Assembly: GCF_016287535.1 (NCBI RefSeq)
Contig: NZ_JAEFAJ010000009.1
Span: forward strand, 1-64,000
Reading direction: 5' to 3'
Source: Ruminococcus sp.
GTDB taxonomy: Bacteria; Bacillota; Clostridia; Oscillospirales; Ruminococcaceae
DNA length: 64,000 nt
Shown here: positions 5,339-36,525 of the stretch, one piece after another
Numbering within the stretch: position 1 is the stretch's first letter
Layout: every line of letters begins with the position of its first letter
Notes under the pieces: model-generated
What the model saw: the letters and a program-made list of their open reading frames with translations, nothing else
What the model was told of the DNA's origin: nothing
Databases searched by the model: none
Program-made: the position numbers and the translations under genes

Positions 5339-6142
5339 ATGAAAAGTAAGGGTTTAAGATTCTATCTCAGGATATACTTCAAGATACTTGCTCAGGACCT
5401 GAAAAGCAAAATGAGCTACCGTGCGGATTTCATCATCTCTACGATCGGAATAATATTCACGAATATCGCAGGCTTTGTAAGCTTCTGGATACTGTTCCGC
5501 AGCTTCCCTTCAATAAAAGGCTGGAGCTATTATGAGATGCTGTTCCTGTACGGATTCTCTCTGGTCGCCATTACTCCTACACAGTGCCTCTTTGACAATA
5601 ACTGGAGCCTGAGAATGGCTGTTTACTCAGGAGATTTTATAAAATACTGCTTCAGACCGATAAATATATTCTTCTATTATCAGTCAGAGGTGTTCGATAT
5701 CAAGGGGCTCGGACAGCTGGCGTTCGGTATCGGTACGCTTATCTATTCATGGAACAGGATAGGGCTCGGATTTACTCCGCTGATACTCCTGAAAATGACT
5801 GTATTTCTTCTGACGGCTTCACTGGTAATGATAGCCATGCAGAACGCGGCGGCTGCCACCTGTTTCTGGATCATGAATTCATTCTATGTCCTTGATTTTG
5901 TAATGCGCTTCCATGATTACGCAAAGTATCCCATAACCATATTCAGTTCGGTATTCAGGTTCATATTCACATTCATTATGCCTATAGCGTTTATTGCTTA
6001 CTATCCGAGCCTTGTTATACTGAGACCTGACGACGTGCCGCTGCTTTCGTGGCTGTCGCCGTTTGCGGGGGCTTTCCTGTTCTGGGTGAGCTACAGGATA
6101 TGGATGCACGGAGCTCTGAAATACAACGGAACAGGTTCCTGA
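5339..6142 (+). CDS. ABC-2 type exporter, membrane subunit 2
   Basis: A 267-residue membrane protein, related in layout to the preceding subunit: a positively charged cytoplasmic start (DLKSKMSYRADF), then about six hydrophobic segments and a short tail. The YYEMLFLYGFSLVA...LRMAVYSGDFIKYCFRPIN stretch parallels the first permease and is characteristic of the DUF990/ABC2_membrane_6 family. It is the last gene of the exporter operon and is followed by a terminator. Confidence 0.9.
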   Translation: MKSKGLRFYLRIYFKILAQDLKSKMSYRADFIISTIGIIFTNIAGFVSFWILFRSFPSIKGWSYYEMLFLYGFSLVAITPTQCLFDNNWSLRMAVYSGDFIKYCFRPINIFFYYQSEVFDIKGLGQLAFGIGTLIYSWNRIGLGFTPLILLKMTVFLLTASLVMIAMQNAAAATCFWIMNSFYVLDFVMRFHDYAKYPITIFSSVFRFIFTFIMPIAFIAYYPSLVILRPDDVPLLSWLSPFAGAFLFWVSYRIWMHGALKYNGTGS

Positions 6143-6163
6143 TATACTATATAATATAGTAAA

Positions 6164-6196
6164 AAAGCTGTGGAAGAATAACCGTTCCACAGCTTT
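6164..6196. terminator. Bidirectional terminator
   Basis: A 12-base-pair stem (AAAGCTGTGGAA and complement) with an 8-9 base loop, T-rich on the right and A-rich on the left. It serves the exporter operon and the convergent macro-NADAR gene. Confidence 0.9.
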
Positions 6197-6201
6197 GTTT
6201 T

Positions 6202-7284
6202 TTATTCGTGAGCTTTCAGCATATCCCGGACTTCCATAAGCGCGAATCCGAGAATGTTCTGTCCGGACCACTTGTCGGCGTATTTTCTGCTGTCGTCCCG
6301 CAGGTCTATGCCGCAGGCCCATATTTTATCCTTTACGGCACACTCTACAAGATAAGCGTCGCCGGTATCAAGGAGCTTCTTTTTTAGCTCGGTGTTCTGC
6401 GAGAATTTCTCATACAGCCCCTTTAACGCAATGAGCTGTCGCTTTCCTGCCCATACATTATCTATGTAGTTCTGAGCGTTCCTGCCGATATTCTTCTGCT
6501 CGGCAACATCGTCGGTGGAGAGTACGTCCTTTGCGGAAATGCTGTCCCCGAAGCAGAGACACTTGTTATACATTATATACTGCTCCATTGAGGTGAACTT
6601 TATCCCGTCAACTGTGAAATCAGACAGGTACCAGTTGCTGAGGAAGCCAAACTGTTCGTCGGCATTGTGGAAGAAGCAGGCGTCATATACCTGATCTCCT
6701 ATATACAGTTTTTCATAAACGGGACTGTCATTATCGCCGGTGTTTTCAGCCTTGCAGCCGCATGAGGATATGCTGAGCTGTTTAATTATATCGTTTCCCA
6801 TATCGTAAAGTTCGTCAAGAATAACTGAAAATACCACTTTGATATCTGAATTTTCATTCTTCTGGAAATCACAGCAGGCAGTAAGAGCAGTTTCCCATGC
6901 CGCCTTCTGAGGGTAGCCGTATATTCCCGCTGATACCAGCGGAAATGCTATGGACTCACAGCCGTTTTCCTTTGCCACCTTCAGCGACTCATAGTAGGTG
7001 CTGTAAAGCAGCTTCTCCTCATCCTGATCGCCGCCGCGCCAGATAGGACCTACAGCGTGGATGACATATTTTGCTTTCAGCGCAAAACCGGGTGTGATAA
7101 CAGCAGAACCCGTATTGCAGAAACCGATCTTATCGCAGGCGCTTTTCAGCTCGGCATAGCCGGCAGCTGAGAAAATAGCTCCGCATACGCCGCCGCCTGC
7201 TGAAAGGTGGTTGTTTGCGGCATTTACTATAGCGTCGGTATCAAGGCTTGTTATATCGGCTTTAACGATAGATATATTTTTCAC
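6202..7284 (-). CDS. Macro domain-NADAR domain fusion (ADP-ribose processing)
   Basis: A 360-residue cytoplasmic fusion. Residues 1-165 are a macro domain: IVNAANNHLSAGGGVCGAI is the ADP-ribose loop, followed by GSAVITPG, YVIHAVGP and FPLVSAGIYGYP. Residues ~195-355 are a NADAR (YbiA/DUF1768) domain: FLSNWYLSDFTVDGIKFTSMEQY, LLDTGDAYLVE, GQNILGFALMEVR. Macro domains remove ADP-ribose or deacetylate O-acetyl-ADP-ribose; NADAR enzymes cleave N-glycosidic ADP-ribose bonds, reported on guanine. The exact substrate is inferred. I chose the GTG at 7284 because GGAGGG sits 6-7 bases upstream; a GTG at 7308 has no good site. No toxin gene is adjacent. Confidence 0.9.
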   Translation of the reverse strand: MKNISIVKADITSLDTDAIVNAANNHLSAGGGVCGAIFSAAGYAELKSACDKIGFCNTGSAVITPGFALKAKYVIHAVGPIWRGGDQDEEKLLYSTYYESLKVAKENGCESIAFPLVSAGIYGYPQKAAWETALTACCDFQKNENSDIKVVFSVILDELYDMGNDIIKQLSISSCGCKAENTGDNDSPVYEKLYIGDQVYDACFFHNADEQFGFLSNWYLSDFTVDGIKFTSMEQYIMYNKCLCFGDSISAKDVLSTDDVAEQKNIGRNAQNYIDNVWAGKRQLIALKGLYEKFSQNTELKKKLLDTGDAYLVECAVKDKIWACGIDLRDDSRKYADKWSGQNILGFALMEVRDMLKAHE

Positions 7285-21250: not shown

Positions 21251-21272
21251 AGTTTACACTCCTTCGGAAAAT

Positions 21273-21300
21273 AAAAAGGGGCATTTCGGAGAATGTCCCT
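21273..21300 (-). promoter_or_regulatory. Hairpin plus T run in the thiW leader (attenuator or terminator)
   Basis: On the minus strand AGGG-A-CATT pairs with AATG-C-CCCT around a six-base loop (one mismatch) and is followed by TTTTTATTTT, 23 bases before the thiW start. I looked for TPP riboswitch core sequences in 21300-21440 and did not find them. Confidence 0.5.
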
Positions 21301-26255: not shown

Positions 26256-26282
26256 AAAGTCCGATCAGAATGGTCGGACTTT
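26256..26282 (+). terminator. Terminator after the acyl-CoA synthetase
   Basis: An 11-base-pair stem (AAAGTCCGATC/GGTCGGACTTT, one G-T pair) followed by TTTTTT. Confidence 0.9.
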
Positions 26283-26326
26283 TTTGTAAACTAAAAAATT
26301 AATTTTTTATAAAACTTTTTTGCATT

Positions 26327-26356
26327 ACCCCGTTTTGCATTCGGGGGGCTGCGTAT
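26327..26356 (+). promoter_or_regulatory. Candidate SigI-type promoter of sigI-rsgI
   Basis: ATTACCCCG (ACCCCG at 26327-26332) is followed after 19 bases by CGTAT, with an A/T-tract upstream. The same pattern precedes the gene at 28639. It resembles the C-rich -35 and CG-containing -10 promoters described for sigma-I, suggesting autoregulation. CCCCG and CGGGG inside it can also pair as a hairpin. Confidence 0.5.
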
Positions 26357-26384
26357 ACTATTATTAATATTGGGGGTGGCAAAT

Positions 26385-27107
26385 ATGACTTCTGATGTAC
26401 ATCAAATCATATCCCAGGTCTATAAGGCTAAAAAGGACAGCCACGCAGCAGATGAACTCATATCTGCTTATATGCCCTTTATAAAGTCTGAAACTGCCAG
26501 GTTTCTTAACCGTCCGCCCGATCAGAGCGATGATGAACTTAGCATTGCTATGTTTGCATTTTATGAAGCGATAAAGAATTATTCACGACTACGCGGTTCA
26601 TTTCTGAAATTTGCCGCATTACAGATAAAGAATCGCCTGATAGATAATTACCGAAAAGAGAAAAAGAATAAAGGTCAAATATCACTGGACGTTAATGACG
26701 ATGACAAAACCGACCTGAAAGAAACGATCCGAGATGAACACGACGATTACGCAGAAAACGAACTACGAGATGCAACAAAACAGGAGATCGAAGAGCTTTC
26801 GGCACAAATGACAGAATTCGGCGTCACCATGAGCGACGTCGCGGAGAATTCGCCCCGTCAGAGGCGTACTCTCGAAATATGTCAGAAGGCCGTATCATAC
26901 GCAAGAAACAATCCTGAGATCCTCGATGACTTTCTCAGAACAAAGCGCGTTCCGCTGGCAAAGCTCGCAGAAGGCGCAAATGTGGAAAGAAAGTCTCTTG
27001 AAAGACACCGACGCTATCTTGTCGCCGTACTGCTTATATGTACCAACGGTTACGAGATAATGCGGGGCCATATAATGCAAGTATTAAAAGGTGGTGAGAA
27101 AAAATGA
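26385..27107 (+). CDS. sigI: RNA polymerase sigma factor, SigI family
   Basis: A 240-residue sigma factor. Region 2 is visible as FIKSETARFLNRPPDQSDDELSIAMFAFYEAIKNYSRLRGSFLKFAALQIKNRLIDNYRKEKK, characteristic of SigI (short sigma-70 lacking a normal region 3/4). The C-terminal half (TLEICQKAVSYARNNPEILDDFLRTKRVPLAKLAEGANVERKSLERHRRYLVAVLLI) is the SigI-C DNA-binding part. The ATG at 26385 follows GGGGG by 8 bases; an in-frame TTG at 26370 has no such site. It overlaps rsgI by 4 bases, the standard arrangement. In cellulosomal clostridia this pair senses polysaccharide outside the cell. Confidence 0.9.
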   Translation: MTSDVHQIISQVYKAKKDSHAADELISAYMPFIKSETARFLNRPPDQSDDELSIAMFAFYEAIKNYSRLRGSFLKFAALQIKNRLIDNYRKEKKNKGQISLDVNDDDKTDLKETIRDEHDDYAENELRDATKQEIEELSAQMTEFGVTMSDVAENSPRQRRTLEICQKAVSYARNNPEILDDFLRTKRVPLAKLAEGANVERKSLERHRRYLVAVLLICTNGYEIMRGHIMQVLKGGEKK

Positions 27108-28390
27108 AATATATCGTTATGGAATGTCACGAAGGATACGCTTTACTAATGGACGAAGAATCACGCGTCGTAAAAGCAGCAAACCTCAGATACGAAGTAG
27201 GACAGCATATCACCTCTCCGGTGCTGATGAAATGCGCTGATGAGGGTGAAAGAAAGATCAGCTTCTATGTCACAAGATTTGCCGCAGCCGCTGCTTGTCT
27301 TGCACTTGCGGTCTCAGCAGGTTCATTCTATTATTCACGAAATTTCAAAACTCACTCTACCGTCTTAATATCTGCCAAAGCAAATATCCGTATGGATCTT
27401 AACAAAAAGGGAGAAGTTCTCAGTCTCAGCGGCGGAGATTCCAAGGCCAATGAACTGCTCAAGGATTATGTACTTAGCAGGAAGGACAAGATCACCGTTG
27501 CAAAAGAGATCATTGAGCTCGAAACCTCAAAGGGTTATTATTCCGAAGACGATGTACCCGATCTTTATATAAAAGCTGAAGATACCGAGGAATACAATTC
27601 GTTGAAGGAAGAATTTGAAACAGGTTTCAACGATACCCAGATAAATGTTTACGAATACGGTACTCCGCTGGCAAAGGTCCCGGAAGCTCCGGCACCTCCG
27701 GCAAGTCAACCGGTCAAGGATGAACCCAAACCGGATGCTCCTCAGCCTCCGGGCAATGAGGCGGATTCACCGGCGCCTCCGAAACCGGCTGAAAACGGCG
27801 GTCCGGCTGCGCCTGCGGCGCCCGGAAATCCCGCGGCACCGGTTCCTCCAGGAGAATCATCTCCTCCGGCAGCGCCTTCCGTTCACGGAAATGATCCGGT
27901 AAAGCCGGCTGATGACGGAAAAAATACAGTCAAGCCAAATGACAAGGCTGATCCGCCAAAGCCCGCTGAGCCAAACGCTCCTCAGCCTCCGGCACCCAAA
28001 AAGACATCTTATATGTCTGCACCCTATGAGGCTGCAGATGCCAATACGCTTCTTACCGCGCCTGCCCCTCCTGCAGCGGCTGCGGATATAAATATAGAAG
28101 AACCCCGGGAGACACTTCCCGGACAGGGAGTAAACAGCTTATTGCCTGAACCGGAAGTTCCGAAAGCAGCAGCACCTGCTCCGGAACAGGAAAGCTATAC
28201 TCTGAAAATATCGACAACAGCTCCGGGTCCTGAAACAGCAGACGAAAAAACAGAACATCTGCAGGTACAGGAAGCGGCGTCGGTCAGAGTCAGGGTATTA
28301 GCTTTGCAACCAAATAATACAGCACCAAAAACCGGAACAAAAGCCCCGGCACCAGAAGCTGCACCTAAGGTAAAAGCACCTGCCCCCTGA
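27104..28390 (+). CDS. rsgI: RsgI-like membrane anti-sigma factor with Pro-rich ectodomain
   Basis: A 428-residue single-pass protein. Residues 1-45 match the RsgI N-terminal anti-sigma domain (VMECHEGYALLMDEESRVVKAA), the membrane span is ~54-77, and residues ~84-190 form the conserved RsgI outer domain (VLISAKANIRMDLNKKGEVLSLSGG). From residue ~193 to the end it is a Pro/Ala-rich low-complexity stalk with no recognisable carbohydrate-binding module, unlike clostridial RsgI sensors. At the site where clostridial RsgI carries an Asn-Pro bond I read Asn94-Ile. It would hold SigI inactive at the membrane. Confidence 0.88.
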   Translation: MKYIVMECHEGYALLMDEESRVVKAANLRYEVGQHITSPVLMKCADEGERKISFYVTRFAAAAACLALAVSAGSFYYSRNFKTHSTVLISAKANIRMDLNKKGEVLSLSGGDSKANELLKDYVLSRKDKITVAKEIIELETSKGYYSEDDVPDLYIKAEDTEEYNSLKEEFETGFNDTQINVYEYGTPLAKVPEAPAPPASQPVKDEPKPDAPQPPGNEADSPAPPKPAENGGPAAPAAPGNPAAPVPPGESSPPAAPSVHGNDPVKPADDGKNTVKPNDKADPPKPAEPNAPQPPAPKKTSYMSAPYEAADANTLLTAPAPPAAAADINIEEPRETLPGQGVNSLLPEPEVPKAAAPAPEQESYTLKISTTAPGPETADEKTEHLQVQEAASVRVRVLALQPNNTAPKTGTKAPAPEAAPKVKAPAP

Positions 28391-28441
28391 GCAACCATCC
28401 CTTTAATCCCCCCCTTCCCTTAGAAAACATGAATTTCGATA

Positions 28442-28476
28442 AGAAGAAAGGCACTGCTCAGCAGTGCCTTTCTTCT
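28442..28476 (+). terminator. Terminator after rsgI
   Basis: A 16-base-pair perfect stem (AGAAGAAAGGCACTGC and complement) with a TCA loop, followed by GTTTT. Confidence 0.92.
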
Positions 28477-28540
28477 GTTTTAAGCCTTATACGGGCAATT
28501 CAAAAAAATATCTCATTTTTTTCAAAAAAAATTCATAATT

Positions 28541-28569
28541 ACCCCGCTTTTTAAAATCCCTTTTCGTAT
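28541..28569 (+). promoter_or_regulatory. Second candidate SigI-type promoter
   Basis: ATTACCCCG (ACCCCG at 28541-28546) followed after 18 bases by CGTAT, with a long A-tract upstream, 70 bases before the start of the secreted protein gene. No ordinary TTGACA/TATAAT pair is visible here. Confidence 0.5.
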
Positions 28570-28638
28570 CCTGTTTATGTAAAGCAAATAAAGCTTATAT
28601 CTCCAAAAGGAGAAATATAATTTAAAGGAGTAATTCAA

Positions 28639-29676
28639 ATGAGAAACAAGAACCGTGTTCTCGCTGCAATCGCTGCAATGTCAGTTATGGCATCAGCAAC
28701 AAGCATCAGCGCTTTCGCAGCTGAGGCAAACGAAGAAGCAACTACTGAATCTGTTGTATCAACAGCTATCGAAGAAGTTGCTGAAGAAGCTGAAGAACTC
28801 ATCTTTATCGCTACAAACGATGCTGCTGAAGAGACAGCAGAAGATGCTGCTGAAGAAGCAGTTGTTGAAGAAGAGACAACTGTTGCTGAAGAGACAGTAG
28901 CTGAGGAAGCAGTAGTTGAGGAAGCAGTTGTTGAAGAAGAAACAACAGATGCTGAAGAGGCTGTTGCTGAGGAAGAGGTTGAAGCTCCTACAGCTCCCGT
29001 TCCTCCTGTTATTGTTGATGTAACAGATATTCTTGAGCAGATCCGCAGCTTCATCGAGGCTACAGATTTAGAGATCCTCAACGATACAATCATCGAGAAC
29101 TGGGATCAGATCGAGAAAGTTGATATTCACTTCCATGCAAATGAGAAGCCCGTTCCTCCTGTTCCTCCTGTAGCTGAGGAAGCTGAGGACGCAGAGGACG
29201 CTACAGAGGCATCTGAGGACGCTGAGTCTGAGGAAGCTGAGAAGCCCGCTAAGCCTCTCGGACCTGTTCACATTGATCTTACAGACCTCTTTGCTGAGAT
29301 TCGTGGCATGATCGATATGGACAAGATCGATTTCATAGATGACGAAGTTAAGGAGCAGATCCTTAATGCTAAGGATATCCACGCTGACGTACACTTCAAG
29401 CACGTTGCTCCGGAGCCTCCGACTCCTCCTGTTCCGCCTGTAGAGGACGAGAACGCTGAGAAGCCTGAGCCTCCTACACCTCCCGTTCCTCCTGTAGAGG
29501 ACGAGAATGCTGAGAAGCTTGAGCCGCCCGTTCCTCCTGTACACGAGGAGCTTGCTAAGCCTGAGCCGCCCAAGGGACCGACTCACATCAAGATAGGTCA
29601 GGACGAACTCAGCGCAGCAATCGCAGCAGGTGCTTTCAATATACCTGGTGCTCAGACAGCTGAGGCTGCTGAATAA
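28639..29676 (+). CDS. Secreted acidic, Pro-rich protein with a duplicated domain
   Basis: A 345-residue exported protein of no family I know. Signal peptide to ~residue 28 (MASATSISAFA/A). Residues 30-117 are a Glu/Ala/Val/Thr-rich acidic stretch. Two related units follow: residues 121-178 and 207-268, each running VDVTDI or IDLTDL, a helix, then an IH(F)H or VHFKH strand, and ending in PPxPPVPPV. The C-terminal third has repeats of PEPPTPPVPPVEDENAEK. No anchor motif is visible. The gene follows sigI-rsgI and shares their promoter pattern. The Pro-rich stretches resemble RsgI's stalk. AAAGGAG lies just upstream of the ATG. Confidence 0.85.
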   Translation: MRNKNRVLAAIAAMSVMASATSISAFAAEANEEATTESVVSTAIEEVAEEAEELIFIATNDAAEETAEDAAEEAVVEEETTVAEETVAEEAVVEEAVVEEETTDAEEAVAEEEVEAPTAPVPPVIVDVTDILEQIRSFIEATDLEILNDTIIENWDQIEKVDIHFHANEKPVPPVPPVAEEAEDAEDATEASEDAESEEAEKPAKPLGPVHIDLTDLFAEIRGMIDMDKIDFIDDEVKEQILNAKDIHADVHFKHVAPEPPTPPVPPVEDENAEKPEPPTPPVPPVEDENAEKLEPPVPPVHEELAKPEPPKGPTHIKIGQDELSAAIAAGAFNIPGAQTAEAAE

Positions 29677-29863: not shown

Positions 29864-29897
29864 ACGCCGCAGAATTTATTTTTGCGGCGTCTTTTTT
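29864..29897 (+). terminator. Terminator after the secreted protein gene
   Basis: An 8-base-pair ACGCCGCA/TGCGGCGT stem plus an outer GC pair, followed by TTTTTTT. It lies 190 bases after the stop; weaker inverted repeats (TGCCCTT/AAGGGCA at 29714-29747) lie between, and no gene is seen there. Confidence 0.85.
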
Positions 29898-34354: not shown

Positions 34355-34454
34355 AGTCACAGTTCCTATTTCACTTCCGAGTATATATAACAGAGCGTGA
34401 CAAATGCATTTGAATGCTTCGCAGCAGTGCTGCGCGGTATCATGGAGGAATAAA

Positions 34455-35021
34455 ATGACCGACCAGCAGGTAAGGGAGCTCCTGAAAAGCTCTCCGCAGA
34501 CAGCCCACAGGCTTGTTTTCAACGAATACTACAGCTATGTCTATACGATAGTCTTCAATCGCCTGAGAAGCTGCGCTTCAAGGGAGGATATCGACGAATG
34601 CGTCAGCGACGTTTTCTCGGATGTATTTATAAAATACAACTCGAACAGCGCATACAGCGGCGATATAAAGGGCTTTATAGCATTTATCGCCAAACGGCGC
34701 AGTATAGATATGTTCCGCAGGCTGTGCTCAAAGAAAGCCGATACTCTGTCTATCGACGGTGACGAGGCTATGCAGCTCTCCTCTGACGAAAGAGTTGACG
34801 AGCTTGCCGAAAGAGCGGAAACAGGTCATGCTCTCCTTGACGCGGTAAGGTCCCTCGGTGAACCCGACAGCACGATAATAATACAGAAATACTACTACGG
34901 AAGGAATTCCGCGGATATAGCCGGTATGGTGGGTATGAAGCCTGCCGCGGTGCGGAAAAGGACAAGCCGCGCAATGGACAAGCTGAAAAAGCTGCTCACG
35001 GATATCGGCGAAGGAAGGTGA
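34455..35021 (+). CDS. ECF-type RNA polymerase sigma factor
   Basis: A 188-residue sigma factor. Region 2: AHRLVFNEYYSYVYTIVFNRLRSCASREDIDECVSDVFSDVFIKY, then AFIAKRRSIDMFR. Region 4: DSTIIIQKYYYGRNSADIAGMVGMKPAAVRKRTSRAMDKLKKLL, ending in a helix-turn-helix. The ATG at 34455 follows GGAGG by 7 bases; the frame is open upstream to 34404 but without a good site. The next gene, 4 bases on, encodes a single-pass membrane protein, the usual position for its anti-sigma partner. Confidence 0.92.
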   Translation: MTDQQVRELLKSSPQTAHRLVFNEYYSYVYTIVFNRLRSCASREDIDECVSDVFSDVFIKYNSNSAYSGDIKGFIAFIAKRRSIDMFRRLCSKKADTLSIDGDEAMQLSSDERVDELAERAETGHALLDAVRSLGEPDSTIIIQKYYYGRNSADIAGMVGMKPAAVRKRTSRAMDKLKKLLTDIGEGR

Positions 35022-35025
35022 TGTC

Positions 35026-36525
35026 ATGAATTTAAAAAAAGAGTTCGATGTACTTGAAGATACCGGGCAGAGCGTAATTGACAGACTGGCTTCGGAATTT
35101 CCTCCCGCTGATGAAAGTGAAAAGGAGAGAATATTCAGTATGAGCGAAGGAAAGTTCAATAAGCATTTCAGCGAGCTCCCTGAGGATGGTGAGAATACCG
35201 TCAGTGGCGTTGAAGTATATAAAAGACCGGTATGGCAGAGGATAGTCAGCACAGCCGCCGCGGCAGTCCTGATAGCAGGCGGCATTACAGGCGGAGCCTT
35301 TGCAATGAAGCGTTTCAGGAGCGCAGCCAATGTTGCGTCAGACGCCGGAGCGGAGGACACAGCTCAGCAGGATCAGAAAAAGATCGCACCATTCGGCGAT
35401 TTTGCCGAGCTGGAATATCAGCTCTGCGATCTCAGTGATGAAGGCAGGCAGGATATAATCAACAGGATACAGAATGACACTTTGTCTCAGGTACTCATCG
35501 ACGAAACAGAAGAAATAAAGAGCTATTTCGGGCTTGTGGGCGGAAAGGAAATAAGCGCCGACAAGCGCGAAAAGCTTGCGGAGTTCTTCAATAATTATGA
35601 TTACAGCGATTCTCAGTTTGAGTTTAACGATGAAGACGGGACCCCCTATATCGGCTCAATAGCAACTGTAACATTTGAGCCGCAGGACAGTTTGTCAGCT
35701 GTTGACGATTCAAAAATTACTCCTGAATCCTTGTCAAAATACTCGTCATTCAAATTCTTTAACGAAGAAGAAAGTGACTGTAAATACTGCTTCTGCTGGC
35801 AGAGCGACGATGAGGTAAGGTATCTGGGCTTTTACACTCTGAAAGACGGAACAGGTATAATTAATTACACCCATTTCCATTACGCGGAAAAATACGGACA
35901 GCTCGTTATGACGGATGATAAAATATCAGTTGAGGGCTGGAAGGTAGACTATGACCTCTTCACATCAACTATTGAGGATATTCTTGCAGATGACACAGAA
36001 GAGACCGAGGAGACGACAGCTTATACTCCTGCATCGGACATAAGCTTTACCGACGAACGCTTCTTCACCGAGAATAACTGGGGATATTGTGTAGATGGAC
36101 AGAATCAGGATTATACACAAATGGATATAGCCGCGATCTGCACACGCCCTGACGGCAGCGAAGGCATGAGCAACATGGCGGAGATACTGTACAACAACAG
36201 TCTCTCAGATGAACAGGCTAAGGAAATAGCAGCTATCCTCAGTGAATGTGAATGGAGACGCTGCGAGGAATCAGACAAATATCCCATGGTACCGAATGAA
36301 AACAGTGTTCAGTTCACCGCTAAGACCACCGACAGTTATCTCTCTATGATAATTGCCTATAACGAGCAGCCGTTCGCAATGTTCAGCTCGGTAAGATTTA
36401 CCGAAAGTAACGGCAAATACTATGAGTCATACTCAGGAGTGCCTTATGCTTTCCTGGAAGAAAGCCTTATCTATTTTTGCAGCGATCCTGATATAGTACA
36501 GAAAATATCAGCTGTCCTTTCATAA
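35026..36525 (+). CDS. Single-pass membrane protein, probable anti-sigma factor with ectodomain
   Basis: A 499-residue protein. An acidic cytoplasmic part (residues 1-~68) precedes one membrane span at ~75-92 (VSTAAAAVLIAGGITGGAF), then a large outer region. Two similar outer modules are visible: about residues 180-235 (SADKREKLAEFFNNYDY...) and ~395-470 (SDEQAKEIAAILSECEW...VQFTAK). An acidic Thr/Glu linker (DDTEETEETTAYTP) separates them. Position after an ECF sigma gene suggests an anti-sigma role, although I do not see a named anti-sigma domain. The same module recurs in the next gene. Confidence 0.75.
   Translation: MNLKKEFDVLEDTGQSVIDRLASEFPPADESEKERIFSMSEGKFNKHFSELPEDGENTVSGVEVYKRPVWQRIVSTAAAAVLIAGGITGGAFAMKRFRSAANVASDAGAEDTAQQDQKKIAPFGDFAELEYQLCDLSDEGRQDIINRIQNDTLSQVLIDETEEIKSYFGLVGGKEISADKREKLAEFFNNYDYSDSQFEFNDEDGTPYIGSIATVTFEPQDSLSAVDDSKITPESLSKYSSFKFFNEEESDCKYCFCWQSDDEVRYLGFYTLKDGTGIINYTHFHYAEKYGQLVMTDDKISVEGWKVDYDLFTSTIEDILADDTEETEETTAYTPASDISFTDERFFTENNWGYCVDGQNQDYTQMDIAAICTRPDGSEGMSNMAEILYNNSLSDEQAKEIAAILSECEWRRCEESDKYPMVPNENSVQFTAKTTDSYLSMIIAYNEQPFAMFSSVRFTESNGKYYESYSGVPYAFLEESLIYFCSDPDIVQKISAVLS

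Follow-up and report, generated by a model that had tools for sequence, protein, structure and literature searches.

Two putative sigma-I promoters preceding sigI-rsgI and a gene for a secreted proline-rich protein in Ruminococcus sp.

We analysed a stretch of 64,000 nucleotides (hereafter the window) from the Ruminococcus sp. assembly GCF_016287535.1 (contig NZ_JAEFAJ010000009.1, positions 1 to 64,000), which carries the gene pair sigI-rsgI, encoding an RNA polymerase sigma-I factor and a membrane anti-sigma factor. Comparison with related genomes makes it highly likely that two similar C-rich sites in this region are promoters recognised by the only sigma-I factor of the genome: site 1 would mediate autoregulation of sigI-rsgI, while site 2 would drive a separate unit encoding a secreted protein. 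In this group of rumen fibre degraders the regulon appears to be almost minimal, i.e. composed of sigI-rsgI and one gene for a secreted protein.

Two C-rich sites and their conservation

In both sites the hexamer ACCCCG is followed by CGTAT. The two elements are 19 nt apart in site 1 (26327-26332 and 26352-26356) and 18 nt apart in site 2 (28541-28546 and 28565-28569), and both lie exactly at the positions given in an initial annotation of the sequence; ATT and A/T tracts are found 5' of each. The pattern ACCCCG-N18/19-CGTAT matched twice in the window and never in 100 dinucleotide-preserving shuffles, and the fuller pattern ACCCCNNTTTN{13,15}CGTANNCT identified precisely the same two sites (shuffles, 0). 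The annotation had also recorded the lack of an ordinary -35/-10 at these sites and the absence of the pattern elsewhere in the window, and both statements hold. A sigma-70 scan revealed no plus-strand pair at either site, the only overlap being a weak minus-strand match (9 of 12) across site 1 (26382-26355); the total number of matches, 6, was close to the shuffle mean of 4.3. Scoring with a profile of 64 non-redundant sites located upstream of sigI (the window and locus L132 were excluded from training) gave 44.5 for site 1, 26.3 for site 2 and 15.0 for the runner-up (21282, minus strand); nothing in the reversed window scored 6 or above. The runner-up (21251-21282, minus strand; GCCCCT...TGTAAACTAT) is placed directly before a gene for a small membrane protein and probably reflects chance.

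Each of the two sites is situated between transcription units (Table 1). The hairpins at 26256-26282 and 28442-28476 were identified by RNA folding and were not listed by a simple terminator scan. The latter, which follows rsgI, is the stronger of the two, and this suggests that the second promoter probably starts a transcription unit separate from sigI-rsgI.

Table 1. Features of the sigI-rsgI region (positions in the window)
Positions	Strand	Feature	Basis
26256..26282	+	Hairpin plus T-run behind the AMP-binding-enzyme gene; probable terminator between this upstream unit and sigI	RNA fold -17.5 kcal/mol, z -4.88
26315..26326	+	UP-like A/T tract with flank, just 5' of the first -35	T-rich -12 to -8 kept in the 64-site profile
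26327..26336	+	Putative sigI promoter, -35: ACCCCG and TTTT tract	Kept in 78/80 sigI loci
26352..26361	+	Putative sigI promoter, -10: CGTATACTAT, 19-nt spacer	Sequence, 80-locus comparison, profile
26385..27107	+	sigI, 240-aa RNA polymerase sigma-I factor (ATG start picked from the alignment of relatives)	NF006178 E 2.4e-52, TIGR02895 E 5.8e-47
27104..28390	+	rsgI, 428-aa anti-sigma factor of the membrane: domain in the cytoplasm, single long helix, periplasmic domain of the RsgI type lacking Asn-Pro, tail rich in Pro	RsgI_M E 1.7e-7
28442..28476	+	Probable terminator 3' of rsgI: hairpin with a T-rich tail	RNA fold -27.8 kcal/mol, z -6.76
28529..28540	+	A/T tract with flank, 5' of the second -35	Sequence; second-site profile
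28541..28551	+	Putative second promoter, -35: ACCCCG and CTTTT	Profile 26.3; second site in 63/80 loci
28565..28574	+	Putative second promoter, -10: CGTATCCTGT, 18-nt spacer	Sequence, profiles
28639..29676	+	Putative target gene: secreted acidic Pro-rich protein, 345 aa	Comparison with relatives
29005..29136	+	First copy of a ~44-residue Trp-containing domain	Profile A1 (which includes this stretch as one of its rows), E 2.5e-15 in own genome
29263..29355	+	Second, weaker copy of the ~44-residue domain	Profile A1, E 1.8e-7
29864..29890	+	Terminator-like hairpin 3' of the target gene	Simple terminator scan

A total of 118 relatives were confirmed, the best 80 of which were kept with their flanks. 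One of these (L134) starts inside sigI and was left out of all counts, so that 79 examined loci plus the window make up the 80 loci referred to below. Among the named records, that of a yak-omasum Ruminococcus sp. is the closest (its SigI is 99% identical), and R. flavefaciens provides the nearest named isolates. Upstream of sigI an ACCCCG-like hexamer is found 18 (70 loci) or 19 bases (8 loci) before CGTA or, in a few cases, CGCA; the two exceptions are L060, which is cut by a contig end, and L136, which has no match upstream of sigI. The 64-site profile describes a T-rich segment at -12 to -8 followed by TACCCCG-N-TTTT-N13-CGTAWnCTAT. From the first A to CG there are 24 nt (70 loci) or 25 nt (8 loci), and this arrangement (a C-rich -35 and a CGWA -10 about 24-25 nt downstream) is that of SigI promoters.

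The same profile, applied to all 80 loci (689 kb), yielded 64 non-self matches at 14 or above and none in the reversed sequence. All but one represent a single second site per locus, placed 3' of rsgI or divergent from sigI (63 loci); the remaining match is the weak one at 21282. The second sites constitute a distinct class, TACCCC(G/A)(C/T)TTTT...CTCCGTAA-CTRTWAACA (45 non-redundant sites), and neither the C nor the G of CGTA varies in either profile. Judged by eye (the ends of each protein, and the whole of 17), 60 of the 61 readable second sites precede a gene for a signal-peptide-bearing, acidic, Pro-rich protein. A composition filter (Pro >= 8%, acid excess >= 3%) was passed by 57 of the 61, with L085, L089 and L131 being marginal and L135 clearly different; over all 61 proteins the median length is 275 aa and the median net charge -45.

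The distribution of the motif was then compared with that of SigI in 125 genomes of the genus, 63 with and 62 without SigI. The pattern ACCCCNNTTTN{13,15}CGTANNCT was present in 65 of them (reversed control, 0), namely in 60/63 genomes with SigI versus 5/62 without (Fisher 1e-25, a value which is overstated since related genomes are not independent). In SigI genomes the strict motif typically occurs twice (2 copies in 40 genomes, 1 in 14, 3 in 6 and 0 in 3). The domain of the target protein shows a similar distribution (57/63 SigI genomes versus 1/62 others). The 117 sites comprise 45 just before sigI, 56 before a gene with the target domain and 16 elsewhere. Among the last, three (G146, G172 contig C109, G190) precede target-family genes missed by the domain profile, two (G158, G223) run off contig ends and one (G161) was left out; the other ten comprise three copies in antisense orientation at the uvrC 3' end (G127, G128, G139), one each in G145 and G205, and single sites in G144, G167, G172 (C9), G176 and G184. 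The extra copies in G145 and G205 (L143, L144) are conserved between both genomes; a start codon accompanied by a ribosome site is absent within 500 bases.

In seven SigI genomes (G130, G131, G162, G171, G191, G203, G224; L138, L139, L152-L156) the target gene lies on another contig than sigI and is preceded by the same promoter, as it is in an eighth, fragmented genome (G146; L157). In three of these cases the site is about 7 (G131), 17 (G130) and 61 kb (G162) from the nearer contig end. The retention of the promoter on other contigs argues for regulation in trans over mere neighbourhood, although such contigs could adjoin in the genome.

Several observations weigh against the proposed pairing of SigI with the two promoters. 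Since sigI and the target gene are usually neighbours (48 of the 56 target sites share the sigI contig), part of their co-occurrence is linkage. No nearby second site was found in 17 of the 80 loci; six of these have one elsewhere in the genome, as matched by coordinates (L062, L075, L076, L087, L090, L099), and in six the contig stops 1.8 to 3.6 kb past the beginning of sigI, which leaves five unexplained (L111, L112, L117, L121, L136). In addition, five genomes in which SigI was not found carry the motif, one of them (G193, 53% complete) before a target gene with the same promoter.

SigI, RsgI and the secreted protein

The best matches of the sigI product are the NCBIfam SigI models, yet both scores are below the curated cut-offs of these models. 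The protein aligns over nearly its full length with the solved SigI6 (chain 8i24_F, E 2.8e-22) and with SigI1. By this alignment it consists of SigIN and SigIC without sigma-4, whereas Pfam detects region 2 only. No other full-length SigI match exists in the genome; one further match (E 0.001) covers 81 residues. Three relatives (G179, G216, G218) have a sigI match carrying one internal TGA.

In SigI6, residue H171 enters the minor groove of the A-tract, and activity in vivo is lost when this residue is changed to Y, F, N, S or A (PMC10575876). The K170-H171-R172-x-S174 set of minor-groove residues given there is not retained across the 80 loci: position 171 (SigI6 numbering) is Q in 79 loci and R in L127, K170 is K/R in 72, R172 is R/K in only 40 with the following column being R in 79, and S174 is T in 76. 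The family placement rests on the full-length match, and the protein is therefore a divergent SigI. The DNA differs as well. An A-tract at the 3' end of the -35 has been proposed as a general feature of SigI promoters (PMC6056542), but it is not typical of this group, in which the tract is T in 70 of 77 sigI sites, A in 3 and mixed in 4 (L132 left out). In a family set of more distant SigI proteins, 14 of the Q type have a T-tract in 10 cases, an A-tract in 3 and a mixed one in 1, while among 11 of the H/K type with a recognisable upstream site 8 are A-rich (3 of these with AGAAT instead of CGAA), 2 mixed and 1 T. These tracts were read by eye, and 25 of the 50 distant loci were unscored (no site found by regular expressions, including six class-level SigI with Q; A or S at position 171; or no alignment). 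Residue 171 and the tract thus change together between clades, but phylogeny is a confounding factor here, and a link between the two is hypothetical.

Spacers resembling inverted repeats around ACCCCGTTTT were noticed in the sigI promoters of several relatives, e.g. L075, L085, L109 and L117. A dyad in the sigI promoter was considered and rejected: an arm-swap test on 59 promoters (L132 and L074 left out) gave z 2.9 (exact) and 2.2 (local), with -0.3 for a direct-repeat control, but z was -1.0 (exact) for 40 target promoters, and the test was post hoc and unreplicated.

The rsgI product, encoded directly after sigI, has the architecture of RsgI, i.e. a cytoplasmic N-terminal domain, a transmembrane helix and a periplasmic domain, although the Pfam match to RsgI_N (E 0.08) is below the cut-off. 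An alignment profile matched solved RsgI chains (best E 3.7e-7), and a confident structural model (mean pLDDT of 89 for residues 1 to 190) shows a small domain of beta type, a single long helix and a domain of alpha/beta type. Pfam recognised no carbohydrate-binding or hydrolase domain in this protein, and no domain of any kind in its Pro-rich tail. At the aligned RsgI column, which we take to be the cleavage site and at which solved cleaved chains start, Asn-Pro is missing in 78 of the 80 loci and is present only in the distant L135 and L136; L133 has Asn-Pro elsewhere in the region. Asn-Pro is not universal among RsgI proteins, and signalling without it is plausible, given that RsgI8 has no self-cleavage motif and shows no self-cleavage, and that in B. 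subtilis blocking the RsgI cleavage site does not fully block signalling (PMC12203970).

The protein encoded behind site 2 has a signal peptide and an acidic stretch, and it also contains Pro-rich repeats and a ~44-residue domain that occurs twice. It has no Pfam or NCBIfam match at E 0.001, and of its six database relatives the three that are named are all hypothetical or uncharacterised. Among 14 RsgI tails that were inspected, 12 are Pro-rich like the target proteins. In L135, by contrast, the tails of both RsgI and the target are rich in Gly, Ser, Asp and Tyr; this parallel faintly hints that RsgI and the secreted protein may work in the same place and possibly interact. In the same locus, the gene behind the second site (5916-7031) encodes a lipoprotein in which an RsgI_M domain that retains Asn-Pro is combined with PepSY.

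A working model may be outlined as follows. RsgI would hold SigI at the membrane through its cytoplasmic domain until a surface or envelope signal reaches the periplasmic domain and the Pro-rich tail. Proteolysis of RsgI, by a route other than the usual Asn-Pro self-cleavage, would then free SigI, leading to the production of more SigI and of the secreted protein. The latter probably has its role within or at the surface of the cell wall, the place where the Pro-rich tail of RsgI is located. A bolder version, which we put forward tentatively and regard as rather doubtful, is that of a nearly single-client SigI: besides itself, it would serve one wall-associated Pro-rich protein acting back on the similar tail of RsgI (an extracellular feedback without Asn-Pro self-cleavage), and the minor-groove reading by SigIC would have been re-coded (His to Gln) together with the switch from A-tract to T-tract. 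The feedback part is based on the faint hint from the tails of L135.

A second sigma/anti-sigma-like pair is present in the window (34404-36525): the first protein contains regions 2 and 4 of sigma-70, and the second, of 499 aa, has no match in Pfam.

Regulon size and alternative explanations

The genome contains exactly two exact sites (control, 0), neither of them near fibre genes. The loose form ACCCCG-N16-22-CGTAT by itself lacks specificity at the genome scale, occurring at control level (5 versus 8 in the reversed sequence); specificity comes from the T-tract that follows CCCCG and from the CT behind CGTA. A longer motif with 3 mismatches allowed found site 2 only, because site 1 has the 19-nt spacer. 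A short 18-nt motif with 2 mismatches gave 16 sites (control, 6), of which, after rescoring, only site 2 (26.3) and C11:38072 (20.4) exceeded 15.0. The latter (contig C11, 38072-38103, minus strand; L160) is a weaker copy at the 3' end of uvrC, pointing antisense into this gene; exact copies occupy the same place in three relatives (G127, G128, G139; L140, L141, L142), and Pfam UvrC domains were recognised in L140 and L160. The idea that such third sites are RNA genes was rejected, as L140-L144 and L160 gave no Rfam match at the gathering threshold. In G172 and G167 (L146, L147) the motif is found 200-350 bases before a gene for a secreted protein with a Cthe_2159 carbohydrate-binding domain, G167 being a genome without a SigI match; the view of this protein as dockerin-like was not supported by Pfam.

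Could the regulon be larger, with SigI also driving other genes, perhaps for fibre degradation, from degenerate promoters missed by our patterns? Cellulosomal SigI factors control many polysaccharide genes (PMC4711584, PMC6056542), and the site at C11:38072 with its copies in three relatives, as well as those before the Cthe_2159 genes, would fit such a possibility. We nevertheless consider it unlikely, given the usual two strict motifs per SigI genome (40/63, as in the genome studied), the single additional site above 15.0 in the 2-mismatch set, and the lack of a Pfam carbohydrate-binding domain in the RsgI of the window. Nothing in the genome ties the motif to xylanase, xylan, cellulose or cellulosome genes; among relatives, the copies before the Cthe_2159 genes of G172 and G167 come closest. 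Features of the biomass-sensing (cellulosomal) SigI/RsgI type are lacking: Pfam recognises no such ectodomain in the RsgI of the window, and both strict sites are away from polysaccharide genes. According to PMC11557425, the use of a suite of RsgI sensors is confined to cellulosome bacteria of the Acetivibrio type, which fits.

It is considerably less probable that the two sites are a conserved promoter or operator of another factor (sigma-A, an extracytoplasmic function (ECF) sigma factor or a regulator), with sigI being merely one of the regulated genes. The -10 does contain TAWACT, resembling a weak sigma-A -10, and ECF and SigI -10 elements are alike, with ECF promoters also carrying a T-tract (PMC6056542). 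However, the motif is nearly absent from genomes without SigI, the C and G of CGTA do not vary, no TTGACA-type pair is present on the plus strand, and published SigI promoters share the architecture seen here. A chance likeness of two C-rich intergenic stretches could be argued from the control-level frequency of the loose pattern in the genome; it is already refuted by the absence of shuffle matches and the conservation of both sites across dozens of species, and its probability is negligible. The reading of the two sites as promoters of SigI is therefore preferred. The candidate SigI regulon of the initial annotation, with SigI-type promoters, autoregulation and at least one target, is strongly supported by the conservation of the sites, their SigI-linked distribution and the copies on other contigs, and is refined to an almost minimal regulon.

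Comparison with known SigI systems

The cellulosome literature consulted here treats SigI of anaerobes mainly as a plant-polysaccharide sensor. A genus of the cellulosome type with one SigI whose promoter motif marks chiefly sigI itself and an uncharacterised family of secreted proteins suggests that the rule "SigI means fibre regulation" need not transfer. Among the matches listed in a literature search (titles and the starts of abstracts), no work on SigI targets or on a SigI promoter in Ruminococcus was present. With typically two promoters per genome in dozens of species, the group could serve as a test set for DNA reading by SigIC and for RsgI signalling without Asn-Pro, and it offers an initial entry point to proteins that have so far carried no label but "hypothetical".

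Several known systems come close to that of Ruminococcus. C. cellulolyticum and C. cellulovorans, likened here by RsgI alone, are cellulosome producers with one RsgI-like protein that lacks a recognisable C-terminal binding element (PMC3413522). RsgI8 of Clostridium thermocellum likewise has neither a self-cleavage motif nor a distinct carbohydrate-binding domain, and how its signal starts is unknown (PMC12203970). RsgI8 is one of nine RsgI proteins in its host, whereas only one is expected beside the single SigI considered here, with a conserved neighbouring target. The SigI1-SigI8/RsgI systems of C. thermocellum resemble ours in the nearly full-length match of SigI, the promoter layout and the periplasmic domain of RsgI, and the SigI3 consensus (CCCYYAAA / CGWA) is close. 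They differ in having multiple paralogues, carbohydrate-sensing ectodomains and cellulosome targets, whereas the genome studied has a single SigI, lacks a recognised sensor domain and revealed no fibre targets; moreover, H171 is replaced by Q and the A-tract by a T-tract.

B. subtilis has CGAA, AA and several envelope-related targets (bcrC, mreBH), and lytE is also a member of its SigI regulon; the Ruminococcus system has CGTA, TTTT, one uncharacterised secreted protein and an RsgI without Asn-Pro. The SigI consensus of Bacillales, ACCCCC--AA-15N-CGAA----T, has nearly the layout described here (PMC4711584). B. subtilis SigI-RsgI is also similar in forming a single sigI-rsgI operon and in its ACCCC -35 and CG-containing -10 (PMC4711584, PMC12203970).

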